Shown here in pieces: positions 4,745-5,239 of a DNA stretch of 5,391 bases. Position 1 is the stretch's first letter; each line of letters opens with the position of its first letter. The stretch is from contig CAJKZL010000255.1 in the NCBI GenBank assembly GCA_905204385.1, positions 1-5,391 on the forward strand, in the 5' to 3' direction. Below the pieces are notes generated by a model, which was not told the DNA's origin, did not search any database, and worked only from the letters and a program-made list of their open reading frames with translations. Origin of the DNA: an uncultured Odoribacter sp. GTDB taxonomy: Bacteria; Bacteroidota; Bacteroidia; Bacteroidales; Marinifilaceae. Position numbers and translations under genes: made by a program.

Positions 4745-5239
4745 ATGAAACATTTCATGAATACAGCACCACAATACCGGCTGGGATTAGTACTCGGAGG
4801 AGGGGGAGCCCGGGGATTCGCCCATCTGGGAGTCGTCCAGGCCATGTACGATATGGGGTTAAAACCGGACATCATCTCCGGCACCAGTGCGGGATCCATC
4901 GTCGGCGCCATGATTGCCTCGGGTCATACACCGCAGCAATGCCTCGAATTTTTCACCGGCAAGAAAATCCTCAACTTCGCAAGGCCCACTATGTCCAAAA
5001 AGGGCATCATGACCATGGCAGGCATGGAAGAACATCTGGCAAAATTCCTGGGAACCGAAACGTTTGAAGAACTGGACACTCCCTTGGTCATCACCGCCAG
5101 CGATATCAACAATGCCATTCCGGTGCATTTCGAACACGGACAATTGCTCCCCTGCTTCATCGCTTCCTGCGCTTCTTTGATATACCAGTCTTTTTCTTTG
5201 CTTCCCGATAAACAAATATATGACATCACATCCAATTGA
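4745..5239 (+). CDS. Patatin-like phospholipase, truncated; C-terminal ~22 residues are foreign
   Basis: The frame codes for 164 residues, but only the first ~143 belong to the patatin family (bacterial RssA-like members are commonly about 250-300 residues or longer). The oxyanion-hole motif 'GGGGARG' is at residues 18-24, and the nucleophile elbow 'GTSAGS' has Ser48. The family pattern continues to 'GQLLPCFIASCA', where 'SIP..F.P' and then the catalytic Asp in a 'DGG' type motif are expected. Instead the frame runs into 'SLIYQSFSLLPDKQIYD' and stops at 5237-5239; that tail is the antisense reading of another gene. Without the Asp of the Ser-Asp dyad the product should be inactive. Family members hydrolyse acyl esters of lipids. 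The start may also be the ATG at 4757. The gene has its own promoter and a leader hairpin. The truncation coincides with a sharp drop in GC, so it is either a rearrangement or an assembly join. Confidence 0.82.
   Translation: MKHFMNTAPQYRLGLVLGGGGARGFAHLGVVQAMYDMGLKPDIISGTSAGSIVGAMIASGHTPQQCLEFFTGKKILNFARPTMSKKGIMTMAGMEEHLAKFLGTETFEELDTPLVITASDINNAIPVHFEHGQLLPCFIASCASLIYQSFSLLPDKQIYDITSN
5149..5175. other. Junction between two unrelated sequences, with ~20 bases fitting both genes
   Basis: To the left the + strand encodes patatin up to about codon 5171-5173 ('ASCA'). To the right the - strand encodes a substrate-binding protein whose recognisable part ('EAQEAMKQG') reaches left to about 5149-5154. 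The stretch 5152-5172 therefore fits both families. GC is about 53% over 4745-5160 and about 38% over 5177-5391 by hand count. No inverted repeats, target duplication or transposase are visible here. Confidence 0.7.

Follow-up and report, generated by a model that had tools for sequence, protein, structure and literature searches.

A probable technical chimera of Odoribacter-family and Lachnospiraceae-type DNA at the right end of a metagenome contig

The window examined here is a 5,391-nucleotide stretch of DNA attributed to an uncultured Odoribacter sp. (contig CAJKZL010000255.1, GenBank assembly GCA_905204385.1). Towards its right end, a patatin-like phospholipase gene meets a piece of an ATP-binding cassette (ABC) substrate-binding protein gene lying on the opposite strand, and both genes are cut internally at the same short word, 5149/5150-5170. 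The features of the window are collected in Table 1. The nature of this join, already singled out in an earlier note on the same DNA, is analysed below by comparing each side with its relatives.

Table 1. Genes and join features of the window, with the evidence by which each was recognised
Feature	Positions	Strand	Evidence
Patatin-like phospholipase gene, 5' part, 142 codons, apparently of Odoribacter-family type	4745..5170	+	PF01734
ABC substrate-binding protein, 81 codons from within the gene (matching residues 63-143 of 382 in P0004), apparently of Lachnospiraceae type	5149..5391	-	relatives
Short look-alike word fitting both genes	5149..5170 (first base 5149 or 5150)		codon-level comparison with relatives of both
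Discordant base in the word: Phe in the patatin frame, fits the binding protein	5156..5156		alignment of relatives
Two DUF3857/transglutaminase-like genes	2..3407	+	PF12969, PF01841, PF12970
Genes for an ECF sigma factor and a small membrane protein, lying after the DUF3857 genes and before the patatin	3498..4602	+	TIGR02937; P0158 97%, P0159 88%

The open reading frame (ORF) starting at 4745 matches the Pfam profile PF01734 over residues 15-145 in a profile search (E 2.3e-24) and contains GTSAG, which we read as the G-x-S-x-G nucleophile motif of patatin-like phospholipases. Family similarity ends with residue 142 (codon 5168-5170), in agreement with the earlier note, which had seen it lost at residue ~143, and the next 22 codons of the ORF are non-patatin: the window reads ASLIYQSF, versus SIPVVF in nine and SVPIVF in one of the ten full-length relatives aligned. 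The YVDGG of aligned relatives falls past the join, leaving the gene, truncated in the window, without the Asp-Gly-Gly motif that is presumably catalytic in these enzymes. Uncut patatins P0038 and P0039 (263 amino acids) are 96% and 93% identical to it over 85% of the query. At the DNA level, the patatin matches 16 of 56 genomes, all of one family, one match being just 28 bases long. Among 20 DNA match rows in the loci compared (two places enter twice, as L001/L038 and as L006/L041), 14 stop at 5166-5173, five stop earlier and one lies elsewhere (5293-5327). A natural break common to the relatives was considered and rejected: contig C58 of the related genome G048 (L037 1-3) stops at most 2 bases from the window's patatin switch point, and this is a mere contig end, since an overlapping contig of G048 (L053) carries a normal patatin onward.

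On the other strand, an unrelated binding-protein gene does lie at the same place, as the earlier note had proposed (5391-5149, identical to part of P0001). However, it does not begin at the join, as was thought: its frame comes in at the window's right edge and is cut at the join at residue 143 of 382, both ends of the gene lying outside the piece. Searching with this piece gave 37 proteins at E ≤ 1e-3 among 47 candidates. Identity is complete with P0001 (81/81 residues), 80/81 with P0003 and P0004, 79/81 with P0002 and P0005, and 74/81 with P0006-P0008; beyond these, relatives are 40-65% identical, the named ones being a Lachnospiraceae metagenome-assembled genome (P0024, 56%), Treponema (P0027, 54%) and Pseudobutyrivibrio (P0034, 46%). 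Proteins P0002-P0008 are uncut, at 382 amino acids. The 80-residue window piece has no match to the profile PF01497 (Peripla_BP_2), which its longer near-identical relatives P0001-P0008 carry. The closest named relative found is encoded on a Roseburia plasmid (63.5% identity across 95% of P0004 and 71% across the 78-residue piece); full-length P0004 is 35.8% identical to a Lachnospira eligens protein and 23.4% to a Parabacteroides plasmid protein. In both Roseburia and L. eligens, the gene order runs from a cobaltochelatase gene to the binding protein and then to permease and ATPase genes. As a separate observation, the last ~86 residues of P0001, encoded on a 3741-base contig, are clearly unlike those of the otherwise near-identical P0002-P0008, and may reflect another chimera in a metagenome record.

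Base composition changes across the join. The patatin part has a G+C content (GC) of 53.0%, the minus-strand part one of 39.3% and bases 5171-5391 one of 38.0%, confirming the fall from ~53% to ~38% noted earlier, and GC at third codon positions (GC3) is 0.63 in the patatin part, 0.40 in the binding-protein part and 0.58-0.63 in the window's other genes. Taken alone, the fall in GC is weak evidence, because 1.9% of upstream 221-base stretches are as low as 5171-5391, although none of these lies within 2-3403.

The word at the join was compared codon by codon with the relatives of both genes (120 listed patatins, of 3119). Bases 5147-5155 fit the patatin, 5150-5391 (perhaps from 5149) fit the binding protein, and 5157-5170 fit both at the protein level. 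On the left, the minus-strand codon 5148-5146 gives Ser, found in one of 37 binding proteins, where 25 have Asp; on the right, the Ala of codon 5171-5173 still occurs in 6 of 111 aligned patatin relatives, but the sequence beyond fits none of the ten shown. Within the word, codon 5156-5158 reads Phe in the patatin frame, a residue absent from the 113 listed relatives aligned there (I 58, V 51, L 4), the other seven of the 120 not being aligned at this codon. Base 5156 is thus most simply derived from the binding-protein side, in which case the strict shared word would be 6-7 bases and the imperfect word ~21 bases. Overall, the word fits both parents at ~20/21 bases, as estimated from relatives, silent codon positions not being given by protein comparison. 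Such agreement is not expected by chance, since 144,922,239 pairs of 21-base positions, taken on both strands from window 1-5100 and from two Lachnospiraceae loci, included none that reached 19/21; on this count, the word more probably brought the join about than arose there by accident. The earlier suggestion of some 20 bases fitting both genes at 5152-5172, as one exact word, therefore holds for the shared fit and the look-alike word at the join; the place shifts to 5149/5150-5170, and exactness fails at 5156, which appears to fit the binding-protein parent only.

Are both sides found in one lineage? Four Odoribacter-family genomes tested carry two to six proteins each of the binding protein's Pfam family, all distant. 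No close copy of P0004 was found in the 56 genomes of the patatin's bacterial family (best matches of 31% for a part of the protein and 28% for most of it), nor in 393 Bacteroidales genomes sampled from a larger group, of which 15 pass E 1e-20 (best 33%) and the 378 under threshold were left unranked. The 78-residue piece gave one weak match in the 56 genomes (E 9e-4, 38% over 49 residues) and matched both Lachnospiraceae control records. In a tree of 67 rows, a split with 100/100 support sets the 27 Bacteroidales rows apart from the two Lachnospiraceae records and from the window piece with its relatives; 27 of 31 Bacteroidales loci were used (L056, L058, L059 and L062, with no BLAST match to P0004, were dropped), two genes entered twice, and the program flagged long branches and unsettled bootstrap. 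The right-side DNA matched no plasmid in a distant-mode search. When the whole window was compared with phages, three matches appeared, each of them to the sigma-factor gene (66-78%). Full-length P0004 matched five unannotated 'Bacteriophage sp.' records from human faecal samples (best 58.2% over 91%), which we take for bacterial fragments or passenger genes with no bearing on the join. Neither full-length protein, nor the join word with either base at 5156, matched the viral contigs, and the word in either form is absent from 65 loci. Likewise, no 5-residue word of the other side's read-through occurs in the 120 listed patatins or the 37 binding proteins. Judged by their nearest named relatives, the two sides probably come from different organisms of different phyla. 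Searching each side separately, as the earlier note had advised, thus assigned the left to the Odoribacter family and the right to a Lachnospiraceae type.

Relatives that point to two origins, an internal cut shared by two genes, the existence of both genes uncut elsewhere and a word fitting both lead us to infer that the right end of the window is a technical interspecies chimera of Odoribacter-family and Lachnospiraceae-type DNA rather than a biological feature, with a probability of about 0.93. This bears out the earlier leaning towards a false join or foreign segment. Both bacteria are of kinds known from the gut. Several points weigh on the other side. The Lachnospiraceae assignment draws on named relatives that are ~46-64% identical, and the binding-protein family is not confined to Lachnospiraceae, since it includes Treponema P0027 at 54%. 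The match of the word to both parents was deduced from relatives rather than read from parental DNA, the searches found exact parental DNA for neither side and likewise not the species of the left side, and the join was judged by sequence comparison alone.

In a technical chimera, Odoribacter-family DNA (1 to ~5155) would have been joined outside the cell, while DNA was amplified, made into a library or assembled, to a stretch of ~220-240 bases from a Lachnospiraceae-type binding-protein gene. More tentatively, because base 5156 of the window is that of the binding protein, a nascent binding-protein strand ending in the word could have annealed on patatin DNA, its last 6-7 bases pairing exactly and the preceding 15 with one mismatch, before being extended; the product would then carry the binding-protein base at 5156, and priming in the opposite direction would have left that of the patatin. 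The tail would come from a chimeric read or molecule close to the contig end. The discordant base points more to mis-priming or a chimeric read than to a k-mer simply shared by both genomes.

The strongest competitor is itself a form of false join, counted inside the 0.93: a pure assembly-graph join, in which base 5156 is the same in the patatin parent as in the window, the word is exact over 21-22 bases and a small-k de Bruijn graph crosses genomes. Assemblers use small k values of about the length of the word, which suits this version. Metagenome graphs linked by shared k-mers are also described as a source of chimeric contigs (PMC7299287). If the patatin parent does carry that base, the graph join explains the data as well as mis-priming; however, it requires a Phe that none of the 113 aligned patatin relatives has, all of them showing Ile, Val or Leu, and we consider it possible at somewhat worse than even odds.

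That the join arose in a living cell, by a real microhomology-driven rearrangement or transfer in which a Lachnospiraceae-type segment entered an Odoribacter-family genome or the reverse, is far less probable. Joins mediated by microhomology do exist, and the presence of the binding-protein family in Treponema shows that it is found outside Lachnospiraceae; but a single event would have to disrupt both genes, visible decay is absent from the pieces (81/81 residues as in P0001), the fusion is seen in no listed relative and no close copy of the binding protein was found in the 56 family genomes. A genuine and very recent recombination between the two types through the ~21-base imperfect microhomology, breaking both genes, is given marginally less credence still. 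Least credible is a single organism with both genes, in which an Odoribacter-family species would have taken up the complete transporter operon and an inversion in its genome, real or by amplification, would have made the join: the joined genes do lie on opposite strands and within-genome amplification chimeras are described as mostly inverted (PMC1855051), but no close copy of the gene occurs in the 56 family genomes or the 393 sampled order genomes, its GC3 (0.40) departs from that of the window's other genes, and orientation is uninformative here because between-molecule joins are direct and inverted at about equal rates in the same report.

Four of the six genes were characterised by family scans and synteny only. 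The two DUF3857 genes have counterparts in unchanged order in L001, L002 and L006, at 77-80% and 47-52% identity, and probably mark the left side as Odoribacter-family DNA. L002 has this pair and no patatin match on its 10.7 kb, a small result that counts against a fully conserved order. In the window, the sigma factor and membrane-protein pair parts a DUF3857 gene from the patatin; in L001 and L006, the patatin comes after the DUF3857 gene at a distance of no more than ~200 bases. The membrane protein has just two relatives in the protein search, P0158 and P0159, both intact at 195 amino acids, and its gene (4016-4602), which follows the ECF sigma gene, is broken by a frame shift beside a short A run, perhaps through a sequencing error, perhaps through genuine loss.

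For quality control, the sequence should be trimmed at ~5148, the last 220 bases being suspect; the patatin should not be read as naturally truncated, nor gene transfer be deduced from the adjoining binding protein. The join is almost certainly an ordinary artefact without new biology. Its single discordant base shows how the direction of polymerase mis-priming might be read from a finished contig.

Three known kinds of chimera resemble it. In polymerase chain reaction and reverse transcription, a polymerase fuses two templates at short homologous sequences; such fusions are described for cDNAs (PMC4858267), whereas the window is a metagenome contig. Chimeric contigs of metagenome assembly, which a review attributes to shared k-mers linking graphs mainly among related species (PMC7299287), likewise bring two genomes into one contig through a short-word join with a short tail; here, however, the word has one discordant base and no clear exact k-mer, and the organisms are not close relatives. 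In multiple displacement amplification, mis-priming joins are reported whose complementarity reaches 21 bp and whose overlaps peak at 6 nt (PMC1855051, PMC4595205). The system of PMC1855051 is one E. coli genome with joins mostly within one molecule, which sets it apart from the present join. The likeness, as seen in the join sequence itself, lies in the short complementary word, with 6-7 exact bases at the presumed 3' end and ~14 more past one mismatch.
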